A stretch of DNA of 55,066 nucleotides from an uncultured Gammaproteobacteria bacterium (lineage in GTDB: Bacteria; Pseudomonadota; Gammaproteobacteria; Pseudomonadales; Ketobacteraceae), in contig CAJXXT010000007.1 in NCBI GenBank assembly GCA_913063495.1, positions 1 through 55,066 on the forward strand, in the 5' to 3' direction. The notes under the pieces were generated by a model. It made no database searches. It was not told the DNA's origin and saw only the letters and a list, made by a program, of their open reading frames with translations. Each line of letters begins with the position of its first letter. Position 1 is the first letter of the stretch. The position numbers and the translations under genes were made by a program. Positions 18,832 to 53,018 of the stretch are shown here, piece by piece.

Positions 18832-19404
18832 TTGCTAAATATTCCGTTAAGTAACCGTCTCGCTGCGCAAAAGACATTATCTACACCCTCAGTTCTCACG
18901 GGTATCCCCACGTTTCAGGTTCCACGACAGTGTCGCCCTTGGTTGTTTGACTCTGGCTCACTTACCAAACGTTTACTTGAGGCGTCCAATCAACACTTTA
19001 ATGTCCGCGTATTACAACAATATCAGGGCAAAGCAACACCTGAGGAGCAATTTGCGCTTAACCTTCGGGCGCGATCTTTGTCTTTTGTTAGGGAGGTGGA
19101 GTTATTGTGTTTTGATACTCCTTGGGTCTTTGCTCGCACTCTTATCCCTTTATCGACGTTAACAGGCGGGGCTAAGGCGCTAACTCAACTGGGGTCAAAA
19201 CCGTTGGGGGCTGCGTTATTTAATTCGCCCTATGTGTCGCGGGGGGCGATTGTTGTTAAAAAAATACACAGTTCATTGCTGCCCCTTTCTCAAGATATTG
19301 AGCCTGGGTGGTTATGGGGGCGGCATTCGGTGTTTTATATTAATCAGGCGCCGTTATTGGTGAATGAGATTTTCTTGCCGGACAGTCCGCTTTATTCACA
19401 GTAA
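18832..19404 (+). CDS. ubiC: Chorismate lyase UbiC
   Basis: A 190-residue cytoplasmic enzyme converting chorismate to 4-hydroxybenzoate plus pyruvate, the first committed step of ubiquinone synthesis. The family pattern is seen: RPWLFDSGSLTKRLLE, FALNLRARSLSFVREVELLC, then the catalytic-site strand PWVFARTLIPLSTL, PLGAALFNSPYVSRGAI, and ending with LLVNEIFLP. No ATG precedes the conserved region, so a TTG start at 18832 is likely. The next gene is ubiA, which uses its product; a large hairpin repeat separates them. Confidence 0.88.
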   Translation: MLNIPLSNRLAAQKTLSTPSVLTGIPTFQVPRQCRPWLFDSGSLTKRLLEASNQHFNVRVLQQYQGKATPEEQFALNLRARSLSFVREVELLCFDTPWVFARTLIPLSTLTGGAKALTQLGSKPLGAALFNSPYVSRGAIVVKKIHSSLLPLSQDIEPGWLWGRHSVFYINQAPLLVNEIFLPDSPLYSQ

Positions 19405-19467
19405 AATCAGTTTGTTAAGGCTATAATGCTAGTTACTTAATGACTATTTTAGCGGATCTTGTAGAAC

Positions 19468-19578
19468 GTGCTTTATGAGTAATCCCCTTTCAGAAATCGC
19501 AAAAGATCGCATCCATGCGTGCTCGACTGCGGCTTCCTTGCCGCAAACGTTTCTGAAAGGGGATTACTCATAAAGCAC
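19468..19578 (+). repeat. Long-hairpin repeat, copy 1 (ubiC-ubiA gap)
   Basis: A perfect 29-bp inverted repeat (19468-19496 with 19550-19578), starting GTGCTTTATGAG and ending TTTCAGAAA on the left arm, encloses 53 bases. The loop contains a further hairpin, TGCGGC-TTCCTT-GCCGCA (19528-19545), and GCATCCATGC. It is one of four related intergenic elements in the window (see 31941, 38293 and 52961). There is no reading frame and no T-tract. Confidence 0.9.
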
Positions 19579-19669
19579 TTATCGTAGACTTCTAGATCAC
19601 CTGAGTAGCCATTATAAATTCCATCAAATAACTATTTCGCAGACTTGTTGCTTAAAAGGTGACCAACCC

Positions 19670-20560
19670 GTGTCTTTACAAGACCTACAACTATCTAACT
19701 CTCGTTTTCGACGTTTACCGGATTTTATTCAACTGGGGCGCTTAGATCGGCCTATTGGTATTTACTTGGTGCTTTGGCCCACCCTTTGGGCGCTGTGGAT
19801 TGCTTCTGACGGGCAGCCTTCGATGAAAAACCTGGTGATATTTATTACCGGGGTCTTTCTTACTCGCACTGGCGGTTGTGTGATTAACGATTACGCAGAT
19901 CGGAATCTAGATGGGGATGTGCAACGCACTCAGAATCGCCCTTTGGCGACAGGGCGTGTAAGCCCCAAGGAAGCCTTACTGGTAGCTGCGATTATTGGAT
20001 TATTGTGTTTTGTATTGGTGTTATTTACTAATCTCACAACAATTTTATGGTCTATAGGCGCGTTGTTCCTTGCTTGTATTTATCCGTTTATGAAACGTTA
20101 CACCTATTTTCCACAGGCTATACTGGGGGCTGCTTTTGCTTGGTCAATCCCTATGGCTTTTGCCGCTGCAGAAAAGCCGGTTCCTGCTCTTGCATGGCTG
20201 ATTTTTGGTGCAACCGTATTGTGGACAATGGCTTACGACACCCTATATGCCATGGTAGACCGAGAAGATGATCTGAAAGTGGGAATTCGTTCTACTGCCA
20301 TCTTATTTGGTGAGGCAGATTTGATGATTATTGGCATCTTGGAGCTGATGGCAGTATTGGCACTATGGCTATTAGGTAACCAGCTACACTTCAGTTATTG
20401 GTACTTTGGTAGTTTGGTGATTGCTTGTGGCTTATGGTGTTGGCAGTTATGGCAGTGTCGAGAGCGTGATACTGAACAATGCTTTAAAGCGTTTCTGCAT
20501 AACCACTGGGTTGGGGCTGTTATATTTGCGGGGATTTTCTTGCACTATAGTATTTCGTGA
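19670..20560 (+). CDS. ubiA: 4-hydroxybenzoate polyprenyltransferase UbiA
   Basis: A 296-residue integral membrane prenyltransferase with about eight or nine hydrophobic segments. Both Asp-rich motifs that bind Mg-polyprenyl diphosphate are present: NDYADRNLDGDVQRTQNRPL near residue 75 and YDTLYAMVDREDD near residue 195. It attaches the polyprenyl tail to 4-hydroxybenzoate in the inner membrane, following UbiC. The start is GTG at 19670, with AAAGGTGA upstream. Gene order ubiC-ubiA-phoB-phoR matches Pseudomonas. Confidence 0.95.
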   Translation: MSLQDLQLSNSRFRRLPDFIQLGRLDRPIGIYLVLWPTLWALWIASDGQPSMKNLVIFITGVFLTRTGGCVINDYADRNLDGDVQRTQNRPLATGRVSPKEALLVAAIIGLLCFVLVLFTNLTTILWSIGALFLACIYPFMKRYTYFPQAILGAAFAWSIPMAFAAAEKPVPALAWLIFGATVLWTMAYDTLYAMVDREDDLKVGIRSTAILFGEADLMIIGILELMAVLALWLLGNQLHFSYWYFGSLVIACGLWCWQLWQCRERDTEQCFKAFLHNHWVGAVIFAGIFLHYSIS

Positions 20561-31874: not shown

Positions 31875-31940
31875 GATGCTTTTACTACTCTATTTAATAC
31901 AGCTGAATTTCTCTGTAACGATTCAGCTGACCTCTTAGTA

Positions 31941-32054
31941 CGTACTTTATGTGTATTATCTTTTAGAAATCGCAAAATATCGCATCCATACGTGCTCGAC
32001 TCCGGCCTCCCTGCTGCAGATATTTCTGAGAGGGTAATACTCATAAATCACTTA
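31941..32054. repeat. Long-hairpin repeat, copy 2 (pstC-pstA gap)
   Basis: An imperfect inverted repeat: TACTTTATGTGTATTATC with TTTTAGAAAT on the left, ATTTCTGAGAGGGTAATACT with CATAAATCAC on the right. The enclosed 65-base core from AGAAATCGC to TTTCTGA agrees with copy 1 at about 56 positions by eye and has the same length. It sits inside the pst operon between pstC and pstA. Confidence 0.85.
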
Positions 32055-36353: not shown

Positions 36354-37733
36354 ATGATCGAATTTATCCCTTTATTTATGTTTGCTACGGTCTGTATCGT
36401 GTTGATGCTGGGCTATCCCGTCGCATTTACGCTAGCGGGTGTTGCACTGTTATTTGCACTTGGTGGCGATGCTGCTGGTATTTTTGATTTTAGTATCACG
36501 CAGGCCTTACCTAATCGCCTGTACGGTATAATGACCAACCAAACATTATTGGCGGTACCCTTATTTATTTTGATGGGGGTTATTTTAGAAAAATCTAAAA
36601 TTGCTGAGAATCTCCTCGATTCCATGTCCAAGTTATTTGGCCGATTTCCAGGTGGATTGGGAATATCTGTCGTATTAGTCGGCATGTTATTAGCCGCAAG
36701 CACCGGTATTGTTGGTGCTACTGTCGTTACAATGGGCTTAATGGCATTACCAACGATGATTAAACGCCAATACGATCCTGAACTAGCAACCGGTGTTATT
36801 TGTGCCACAGGGACCTTGGGGCAAATCATTCCTCCTTCTATTGCCTTAGTGTTACTGGGTGATGTGTTATCCAATGCTTATCAACAAGCGCAATTAAGTC
36901 AGGGTATTTTTTCAACAAAAACCGTCTCTGTAGGTGATCTTTTTATTGGTTCATTAATTCCGGGCTTATTGTTGGTAGTGCTTTATGCAGCTTACGTTAT
37001 CGGTAAAGCGTATTTTCAACCTCAATCTGCACCACCGTATACTCCAGACCCAGAGGAGTTAGAGCACAGTGTTTTTGTATCCGTTATTAAAGGATTATTA
37101 CCTCCCATTTTGCTCATTGGTGCAGTTCTAGGATCAATCTTATCCGGTAATGCTACTCCCACTGAAGCTGCTGCAGTTGGCGCTATTGGTGCAACATTAT
37201 TAGCTTTACTACAACGTCAGCTCAATATCAGTAAGATGATGGATATAGTGACTTCAACAACCAAAATCACCAGTATGGTGTTTGCTATTTTGATTGGCGC
37301 TTCGGTGTTTTCATTGGTATTTAGAGGTTATGGCGGTGATGAGCTCATTCGTTCATTATTTGATGCTATGCCTGGTGGTGTCATCGGCGCTACGCTATTG
37401 GTAATGGTCGTCATATTTTTACTGGGATTTATTCTCGATTTTATCGAAATCACCTTTGTCGTAGTTCCCATTGTAGGGCCCGTGTTGTTGGCGATGGGGC
37501 TTGATCCTGTTTGGTTAGGGGTAATGATTGCGATTAACTTACAAACATCATTTTTAACCCCTCCATTTGGATTTGCATTATTCTATTTGCGGGGGGTTGC
37601 ACCAGAGAGTATTGCAACATCGACGATTTACCGTGGGGTTATTCCGTTTATCTTAATTCAGATTTTGATGATGATTATTCTGGCGATATGGCCTGCGTTA
37701 GCAACCTGGTTGCCTAGCGTTGTTTATGGTTAA
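36354..37733 (+). CDS. TRAP transporter large permease (DctM family)
   Basis: A 459-residue integral membrane protein with about twelve segments. Conserved DctM phrases are ALPNRLYGIMTNQTLLAVPL, ATGTLGQIIPPSIALVLLGD and ATPTEAAAVGAIGATLLALL, with a late NLQTSFLTPPFGFALFYLRG. It is the main sodium-solute channel of a TRAP system of the mannitol/chloroaromatic group (inferred from family likeness). Translation starts right after the small permease stop. The likely binding protein gene lies beyond a thioesterase gene on the other strand. Confidence 0.94.
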   Translation: MIEFIPLFMFATVCIVLMLGYPVAFTLAGVALLFALGGDAAGIFDFSITQALPNRLYGIMTNQTLLAVPLFILMGVILEKSKIAENLLDSMSKLFGRFPGGLGISVVLVGMLLAASTGIVGATVVTMGLMALPTMIKRQYDPELATGVICATGTLGQIIPPSIALVLLGDVLSNAYQQAQLSQGIFSTKTVSVGDLFIGSLIPGLLLVVLYAAYVIGKAYFQPQSAPPYTPDPEELEHSVFVSVIKGLLPPILLIGAVLGSILSGNATPTEAAAVGAIGATLLALLQRQLNISKMMDIVTSTTKITSMVFAILIGASVFSLVFRGYGGDELIRSLFDAMPGGVIGATLLVMVVIFLLGFILDFIEITFVVVPIVGPVLLAMGLDPVWLGVMIAINLQTSFLTPPFGFALFYLRGVAPESIATSTIYRGVIPFILIQILMMIILAIWPALATWLPSVVYG

Positions 37734-37854
37734 CTTATACCGTTAACGATTTAAGTTAACCGTAGACTACGGATTAGGGTTTGTATTCTATTTTTGTCGT
37801 CTACACTGGTTGCTACTTGCACACTCCCCCTTGCATGCAATTTGAGGCAGTATT

Positions 37855-38253
37855 ATGAATGAAGAACACGATGAGGTTATTCAACCTAAAGGTGATTTAG
37901 CGTTACAAACTATTGCTATGCCAAAAGATGCCAACTTTAATGGGGATATTTTTGGTGGTTGGTTGGTATCTCAGATGGATTTAGCAGGAGCGGTAACGGC
38001 GAATCGTATTGCTGAAGGTCGTGTTGCAACGGTGGCCATTGATTCGATGGTTTTTTTATCTCCGGTTGCCATTGGTTCTGTGGTGAGTTGTTATTGTGAT
38101 GTGCTAGATATTGGGCGTAGTTCAATTGCGTTAAATATTGAGGTGTGGGCAAAACATCATAAAACGCAGGAGGTGAGGAAAGTAACGGAAGGTAAGTTTA
38201 CCTTTGTTGCGATTAATGATGACAAAAGGACTCGCACGATTTCGAAAAGATGA
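37855..38253 (+). CDS. Acyl-CoA thioesterase, hotdog fold (YciA-like)
   Basis: A 132-residue hotdog protein. ALQTIAMPKDANFNGDIFGG with WLVSQMDLAGAV is the YciA/acyl-CoA hydrolase signature, including the catalytic aspartate on the long helix (the D of QMDLAG). VATVAIDSMVFLSPVAIG and VTEGKFTFVAI form the central strands. It hydrolyses acyl-CoA thioesters of broad length in the cytoplasm. ATG 37855 has GAGG upstream. It sits between the TRAP permease genes and the binding protein, with no obvious link to transport. Confidence 0.92.
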   Translation: MNEEHDEVIQPKGDLALQTIAMPKDANFNGDIFGGWLVSQMDLAGAVTANRIAEGRVATVAIDSMVFLSPVAIGSVVSCYCDVLDIGRSSIALNIEVWAKHHKTQEVRKVTEGKFTFVAINDDKRTRTISKR

Positions 38254-38292
38254 TTTTTTAGGATAGGTAAAAGCTCAGCGTATCTCGTAGAT

Positions 38293-38434
38293 CGCACCGT
38301 ATCTGTCATCATCTTTCAGAAAACGCAGCAAGTACATCCACGCACCCAATGAACTCGCGAATGAAGTGAGTCTATTGGGTATCCTTGCCTCTGCGACTTC
38401 TGAGATATGATGTCACATACAGTGTTCAATACGG
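38293..38434. repeat. Long-hairpin repeat, copy 3 (thioesterase-binding protein gap)
   Basis: Imperfect arms: GTATCTGTCATCATCTTTCA, then GAAAACGCAG, on the left, and CTGCGACTTCTGAGATATGA, then TGTCACATAC, on the right (about 26 of 34 positions pair by eye). The core differs from copies 1 and 2 and contains its own hairpin ACCCAAT / ATTGGGT, but keeps CAGAAAACGC, TACATCCACGC and ACTCGC like copy 1. It lies between two convergent genes. Confidence 0.75.
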
Positions 38435-38478
38435 AATTTTAAGATTATCACTATAGAGAATTCTGCAACAACATCCCT

Positions 38479-39582
38479 CTACAAATCTCGCGCTTCAATA
38501 AATGCCTTTTCAGAAATAGCAGTATAAGGCCTTACATCGTCACTAAATGCTTTAAAGGAGTCATAAACCTTTTTGGCTTTTTCATCTTTTGCAATAACTT
38601 CTGCAATGACTTCTTCTGATGCATTTTTAAGTGCTAGTAATACTTCGTCCGGTAGTTTTTGAACCTTCACACCATGGACTTCTATTAGCTCTTTTAGTGC
38701 TGCATTATTTCTGGCAGTGTATTCATCTAACATGTCTTGATTCATTGCTCGTGTTGCATGGGTCACGATAGCTTGTAAATCTTTAGGCAATGAATTCCAG
38801 GCATCTTTGTTAACAATAAACTCCAGCATTGCACCCGGCTCGTGCCATCCAGGGTAATAATAATATTTTGCTGCTTTATGTAATCCAAATGTTAAATCGT
38901 TATAGGGACCAACCCATTCAGTCGCGTCGATAGACCCTGTTTGTAATGCGGTAAACAATTCACCACCGGGCAATGTCACCGGAATCCCACCAACACGTTG
39001 CAATACTTCTCCCGCTAAACCGGGGATGCGCATCTTTAATCCTTTCAGATCTTCAACGGTGTTGATTTCTTTATTAAACCATCCGGCCATTTGTACTCCG
39101 GTGCTACCGCCTGCAAACGGTATTAGGTTAAAATCACTGTAAATCTCCTGCCAAAGTTTCAACCCTCCACCATAATGCAACCAACCATTCATTTCTTGGG
39201 CATTTAACCCAAAAGGTACGGCGGTAAAGAATTGACTAGCAGAAGTTTTTCCTTTCCAATAATACGCAGCGCCGTGCCCCATCTCTGCGGCTCCCCGCGC
39301 AACGGTATCAAATACCGCCATCGCGGGTACTAACTCATTGGCCCCATAAACCTTTACCGTAAGTCGACCCGCACTCATTTCTGTGACCGCATTGGCGAAA
39401 TTTTCTGGTGCCGAACCTAGGCCAGGAAAGTTCTTTGGCCACGTTGTTACCAACCTCCAGTTAAATGTTTTTACTTCAGCTTTTTCTGCATCCGCTTGAG
39501 AAGTTGATGCTTTTTCCTCTCCACACCCTATGGCGGTTAACATGGCGATGGATAAACACAGCGCTGCTAATTTTTTTATCAT
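38479..39582 (-). CDS. TRAP transporter substrate-binding lipoprotein (DctP/TakP family)
   Basis: A 367-residue protein with a lipoprotein signal (LTAIGC lipobox, cysteine 20). The mature domain matches the TRAP DctP family, close to alpha-keto acid binders: WRLVTTWPKNFPGLGSAPEN, NTVEDLKGLKMRIPGLAGEV, and ALQTGSIDATEWVGPYNDLT, then YYYYPGWHEPG. The W-V-G-P region and the arginine in KMRIPG are the expected ligand-contact positions. It is probably the binding partner of the DctQM-like permease at 35.7-37.7 kb, although the gene is on the opposite strand. ATG 39582 has AAGGA upstream. Confidence 0.92.
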   Translation of the reverse strand: MIKKLAALCLSIAMLTAIGCGEEKASTSQADAEKAEVKTFNWRLVTTWPKNFPGLGSAPENFANAVTEMSAGRLTVKVYGANELVPAMAVFDTVARGAAEMGHGAAYYWKGKTSASQFFTAVPFGLNAQEMNGWLHYGGGLKLWQEIYSDFNLIPFAGGSTGVQMAGWFNKEINTVEDLKGLKMRIPGLAGEVLQRVGGIPVTLPGGELFTALQTGSIDATEWVGPYNDLTFGLHKAAKYYYYPGWHEPGAMLEFIVNKDAWNSLPKDLQAIVTHATRAMNQDMLDEYTARNNAALKELIEVHGVKVQKLPDEVLLALKNASEEVIAEVIAKDEKAKKVYDSFKAFSDDVRPYTAISEKAFIEARDL

Positions 39583-45853: not shown

Positions 45854-45895
45854 CAGATACAAAAAAGGGGCTTATTAGCTCCTTTTTTGTATCTG
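45854..45895 (+). terminator. Strong terminator after the DUF1302-DUF1329 operon
   Basis: CAGATACAAAAAAGG pairs with CCTTTTTTGTATCTG around a short loop with an inner GC pair, giving a 15-bp perfect outer stem. The T-run lies within the 3' arm. It begins 19 bases after the DUF1329 stop. Confidence 0.8.
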
Positions 45896-52960: not shown

Positions 52961-53018
52961 GCACATTATTTCCTCTTTGTTTCAGAAATCGCTCTGAAAC
53001 AAAGAGGAAATAATGTGC
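52961..53018. repeat. Long-hairpin repeat, copy 4: perfect 26-bp palindrome between glmU and glmS
   Basis: The left arm (52961-52986) starts GCACATTATTTCCTC and ends GTTTCAGA; the right arm (52993-53018) is its exact complement, with a 6-base loop AATCGC. It is like copy 1 with the core removed, keeping TTTCAGAAATCGC and the outer GCAC...GTGC. It would form a very stable hairpin in the glmU-glmS message. Confidence 0.9.

Follow-up and report, generated by a model that had tools for sequence, protein, structure and literature searches.

The window, a stretch of 55,066 nucleotides from an uncultured gammaproteobacterium, contains four copies of a dispersed repeat that is probably, though by no means certainly, a non-coding mobile element resembling miniature inverted-repeat elements (MITEs), with a conserved apex corresponding to a bivalent RNA of the CsrA/RsmA type. 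The repeat would work like a CsrA-binding RNA, move like a MITE and be related to the Rfam motif TwoAYGGAY (RF01731), CsrA binding being predicted from the sequence. A repeat of this kind, MITE-like, class-wide and equipped with a TwoAYGGAY-like RNA module of the CsrA type, would be a novel form of known kinds of element.

The four hairpins reported in the initial annotation are all real (Table 1). The perfect 29-bp arms claimed for copy 1 are present with a spacing of 53 nt (19468-19578), and a covariance model, R1, matched this copy at positions 19466-19580 of the minus strand (E = 6e-29). The arms are only a part of the unit, which extends beyond them to conserved bases and measures about 165 bp from base to base. 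On the plus strand, the unit comprises a conserved base (around TAGCGGATCT on the left, around GATCNCTGAGTAG on the right), a variable, approximately 20-nt arm, the shoulder TTTCAGAAA and the conserved apex, followed by the mirror arrangement. No open reading frame was found within the units. Despite being eroded, the arms of copies 2 and 3 still allow them to adopt the shape of copy 1, and the insert of copy 3 is absent from the aligned elements L081 and L282. The inner core is missing from copy 4. Since a degenerate, core-containing element (L285) is retained at the orthologous place in the congener G001, copy 4 appears to derive from a full element by deletion. The sequence TTTCAGAAATCGC, with up to two mismatches, occurred 11 times in the window versus 1.8 expected and a maximum of 5 in 100 shuffles, and 25 inverted-repeat seeds of 16 bases were present versus none in 20 mononucleotide shuffles.

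Table 1. Repeat copies of the window and their parts.
Feature	Position	Strand	Description
Copy 1, approximate full unit	19444..19608	-	Conserved base and 20-bp variable arm on either side of the apex; ends approximate
Copy 1, left arm	19468..19496	.	29 bp, perfect complement of 19550-19578
Copy 1, right arm	19550..19578	.	29 bp, perfect complement of left arm
Copy 1, loop CATGGATG	19510..19517	-	CANGGAYG, with closing bases
Copy 1, loop CAAGGAAG	19533..19540	-	CANGGA-type, with closing bases
Copy 2	31940..32053	-	Eroded arms; loops TATGGATG and CAGGGAGG; R1 E = 2.9e-13
Copy 3	38292..38434	-	Eroded; secondary hairpin CCCAAT...ATTGGG inserted in apex; R1 E = 3.5e-4
Copy 4	52961..53018	-	Apex-deleted; perfect 26-bp arms, 6-nt spacer

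The initial annotation called for a covariance search of the whole genome and for a search for compensatory pair changes, target-site duplications and an associated transposase; a lack of further copies, or a match to a catalogued repeat, would have told against its reading. In G000, the genome to which the window belongs (5.8 Mb; 84.5% complete), DNA searches returned further copies with up to 97% identity. Model R1, built from 16 copies of G000, recovered about 30 places in this genome, copies 1, 2 and 3 among them, and many more were found in relatives. Several apex hairpins harbor a nested mini-element, a precisely inserted secondary hairpin measuring about 36 bp (GAGCCTGCCCCGCGAGC...GCGAGTGCNTTGGGT or CCCAAT...ATTGGG; 38326-38385; L078 1563-1600; L071; L006; L015; L020; L298). 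The corresponding sites are empty in congeners (L111, L118, and L133). Three contigs of G000 (C135, C124, and C298) break inside hairpins (L063 1-124; L083 1501-1577; L084 1-73), likely an assembly artefact that hides copies. Contig C124 carries close counterparts of regions 19400-19750 and 38150-38580, near 16.7 kb and 2.7 kb, respectively, neighbouring sequence included, indicative of a duplicated region or of the presence of a second strain in the assembly.

It is the window's minus strand that is informative, and not the plus strand on which the hairpins had initially been read. The apex forms two small hairpins on the minus strand, with C-ANGGAY-G loops and a GAGC linker, above a stem of about 30 bp. 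Compensatory changes were found both within G000, in which 26 pairs were changed on both sides among 16 copies, and class-wide, for 43 of 44 pairs across 88 distinct matches drawn from many Gammaproteobacteria. In the class-wide alignment, 93% of the cells were paired versus 55% in shuffles. If the stem were relevant as DNA only, G-U pairs and A-C mismatches would be expected to be equally frequent. On the GGA strand, G-U outnumbered A-C by 201 to 62 in 124 loci that were found by loop pattern alone and aligned strand-symmetrically, the loci of one genome being not fully independent, and by 98 to 21 in the model alignment. This excess supports a constraint on the GGA strand at the RNA level for the class. 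No such bias was observed in the window's genus (27 versus 27), so that the evidence for an RNA strand comes from other lineages. The plus strand was rejected as the RNA, the strand of the Rfam matches and the class-wide G-U bias both pointing to the minus strand.

Recognition by CsrA/RsmA leaves N and Y of the loop pattern free and CA.GGA.G fixed. The loops of 65 copies from the genus were invariant for CANGGAYG except at N and Y. In 22 orthologous loop comparisons, the positions C, A, N, G, G, A, Y, and G displayed 0, 0, 7, 0, 0, 1, 3, and 0 differences, respectively, a test rendered mildly circular by a loop finder that favours CANGGAYG-like words, with positions fixed in intact copies. The paired hairpin loops match the A(N)GGA motif of CsrA (PMC5864184). 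CsrA sponge sRNAs of the CsrB/RsmZ type similarly expose paired GGA motifs in hairpin loops, but they are encoded by one or a few dedicated genes, whereas dozens of dispersed copies carry two sites each in this family. No Rfam match to CsrB or Rsm was obtained in the window. The accessible part of the report on Alteromonas Aln1a-c describes a cluster of CsrB-like sRNAs in one intergenic region and does not mention dispersed repeats.

TwoAYGGAY RNAs, the closest entry among catalogued RNAs, share with the repeat two hairpins with AYGGAY-type terminal loops carried on an outer stem by the same strand, the loops being slightly broader here (ANGGAY). Copy L098 of genome G053 scored 45.6 bits, above the gathering cut-off of 43, and four copies of G000 (L012, L014, L021, and L054) scored 38 to 42 bits. 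The window, copy 1 included, gave no match to TwoAYGGAY, and a genome-wide search of G000 gave none at E <= 5. A catalogued counterpart therefore exists for the G053 copy, whereas the G000 copies fall just below the threshold and the entry is that of an RNA motif; because their scores miss the cut-off, the window copies were not filed as TwoAYGGAY members. TwoAYGGAY RNAs were predicted to bind CsrA in a motif study (PMC4333381). The main-text table of the 2010 description includes TwoAYGGAY among candidate RNAs, with gut, Gammaproteobacteria, and Clostridiales as its sources, and the accessible part of that paper does not state a mobile or multi-copy nature (PMC2864571). Our literature search returned no description of TwoAYGGAY, or of these hairpins, as a mobile repeat.

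For 20 of 31 G000 copies, at least one of two congeners also had an element in the corresponding intergenic position. In 24 orthologous comparisons, divergence amounted to 9% for the apex, 6% for the shoulders and 27-28% for the arms, versus 27-29% for the conserved bases and intergenic flank and 11-12% farther out, in largely coding sequence. Among changed stem pairs, 47 were altered on both sides and still paired, 8 were altered on one side to give G-U, and 9 were broken. We infer that the excess of double changes fits the templating by one arm of the repair of the other. This excess (47 versus 17 others) is also predicted if the repeat is a plain palindromic MITE, similar to ERIC or NEMIS, devoid of any CsrA role, with its apex kept by gene conversion or the needs of transposition and its arms by template-switch correction. 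The equal G-U and A-C counts in the genus, the absence of orientation bias relative to genes and the clear MITE found in one relative (see below) agree with this explanation. We nonetheless consider it rather unlikely: neither conversion nor transposition alone predicts that the N of both loops changes freely at orthologous loci while CA.GGA.G does not, nor do they predict the strong class-wide G-U bias. The repeat resembles the bacterial MITEs ERIC, NEMIS, and YPAL, which are short, non-coding, intergenic and have inverted ends and a long hairpin, but differs from them by an apex module common to many families of the class, with lineage-specific ends and arms.

An origin of the arms in the target sequence was rejected, as there are conserved bases external to the arms, which themselves drift stepwise between orthologues. 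At three loci, the element of the congener was in the opposite orientation, with different arms and flanks. These differences led us to reject flipping in place in favour of a different element at the same site; such elements are possibly remnants of a former inverted pair. If the repeat is the CsrA-type mobile element proposed here, its stem arms offer a clear natural example of concerted hairpin-arm evolution.

Mobility was apparent in G273, a complete genome from another family. In this genome, five copies, each about 162 bp long and 97-100% identical (mostly 99-100%), were located in unrelated intergenic places in both orientations. The end sequence GCAATTCCCARTTTG occurred 292 times, versus 0 for the reversed control, corresponding to about 146 copies by end count. 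The copies have 12-bp inverted ends (CAGCAATTCCCA/TGGGAATTGCTG), and many are flanked by 9-bp target duplications, such as CCGTAGCCG, TTATTGTTC, GTTAAATTG, and CGAATTTTG. Inverted ends, duplications and near-identical copies identify this element as a MITE. Thus, terminal inverted repeats, lack of coding capacity and target-site duplication are all observed in G273, and the ends are approximate in the window's own genus. No target duplication was found in that genus, in which the copies are old and the distribution is patchy: matches number 26-44 in each of four genomes, counting both strands, and another genome is without any. The loops of G273 copies (L335) are expanded with repeated modules (GCGCCAAGGATGGCGT and TTTTGCAGGAGCAAAA) that include many GGA loops.

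The search for a transposase was negative on two counts. No autonomous partner with the same ends was present among the G273 loci read (a minority of the approximately 146 copies), and no Y1_Tnp gene was detected in the copy-rich genomes G000, G001, G002, G010, G012-G014, and G053. The latter result makes mobilisation by RAYT unlikely. A REP/BIME element moved by a RAYT transposase (Y1, IS200/IS605-like) would account for the BIME-like clusters of Xanthomonas, where four copies alternate in orientation (L190 810-1531 and L215 3603-4276). The IS200/IS605 mechanism is duplication-free, in conflict with the 9-bp duplications made by the G273 element, and together with the missing Y1 genes this renders such an origin highly improbable. 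Thus, among the possibilities raised in the initial annotation, the miniature inverted-repeat element and the structured RNA were supported, by the ends and duplications of G273, the covariation and the class-wide G-U bias, and the REP-like element in its RAYT-driven form was not. GTAG/CGTC REPs and TIRtrons are also dispersed palindromes, sometimes in alternating pairs, located mostly 3' of genes; the GTAG/CGTC REPs differ in being 20-40 bp in length and RAYT-linked (PMC3733652).

The element was detected in 23 of 57 genomes in a sample of relatives and, with model R2, in 48 of 276 sampled Gammaproteobacteria genomes, per-genome copy counts reaching 13 being lower bounds in this class-wide survey. 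In a sample of 199 genomes from the phylum, all 18 positives were Gammaproteobacteria, the sample being given without its number of genomes from other classes. Hosts among the matches listed included Shewanella, Stenotrophomonas, Xanthomonas, Alteromonas, Marinobacter, Microbulbifer, relatives of Halomonas, Oceanisphaera, and Pantoea. G000 encodes CsrA (one match, E = 1.4e-23). The csrA gene was found in 241 of the 276 genomes, and the element in 47 of these versus 1 of the 35 genomes without csrA (Fisher p = 0.007, a statistic that ignores kinship). The exception is G229, in which the absence of csrA was read from the list of positives.

According to simple ORF calls, nonredundant copies of the window's genus were sense to co-directional genes in 24 cases and antisense in 20, and 12 and 3 copies were located in convergent and divergent gaps, respectively; orientation elsewhere was 8 versus 14. 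The copies thus lie on the 3' side of genes irrespective of strand, as expected of insertion by transposition; a classic mRNA leader or terminator is made less likely by this placement. The proximity to gene ends and the frequency of convergent relative to divergent gaps would be accounted for if the repeat acted in cis as a 3'-UTR hairpin, either stabilising mRNA or blocking read-through, and its GGA loops were incidental. This explanation appears improbable in view of the lack of strand preference, of a stem that is not followed by a U-run, unlike intrinsic terminators, and of loops that are more conserved than the stem.

Under the preferred CsrA-type reading, the minus-strand transcript of an intact copy would form a stem of about 30 bp and, at its top, a three-way junction with two small hairpins. 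Their C-ANGGAY-G hexaloops would place two GGA motifs about 24 nt apart, a distance suited to a single CsrA dimer. Dispersal would rely on the action of a DDE-type transposase at the inverted ends, as supported by one relative genome and as we infer for the window's genus. Inserted copies would be long-lived, their arms drifting at an approximately neutral rate while correcting each other and their apex remaining under purifying selection. Read-through transcripts from neighbouring genes may bind CsrA through the element and thereby tether or titrate the protein, a regulatory effect that, like transcription itself, is predicted from these sequence features. Several observations stand against this reading: G-U and A-C are equally frequent in the window's genus, in which no target duplications were found; copies lack any bias in orientation with respect to genes, an odd trait in an mRNA element; the GGA loops in the extra hairpin modules of G273 are partly on the strand opposite to that of the apex; and G229 is an exception to the csrA association.

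A broader proposal, which we put forward tentatively as less probable than the identity of the element itself, is that of a transposon-spread CsrA sponge, in which MITEs have spread tens to more than 100 bivalent CsrA-binding RNAs across many Gammaproteobacterial genomes. If so, a mobile repeat would shape the pool of free CsrA and the CsrA response of neighbouring genes, and transposition would rewire the target set of a global RNA regulator. Bacterial MITEs and the Csr/Rsm regulatory system, which have been studied apart, would be joined, and the orphan Rfam motif TwoAYGGAY would be accounted for.

The window also contains two other inverted repeats. The first, at 45854-45895, is a separate repeat, resembles an ordinary terminator and is located just 3' of a gene (19-nt arms, 95% complementary, 4-nt loop). 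The second, at 37718-37771, has 27-nt arms that are 81% complementary without a spacer and overlaps the 3' end of an ORF.
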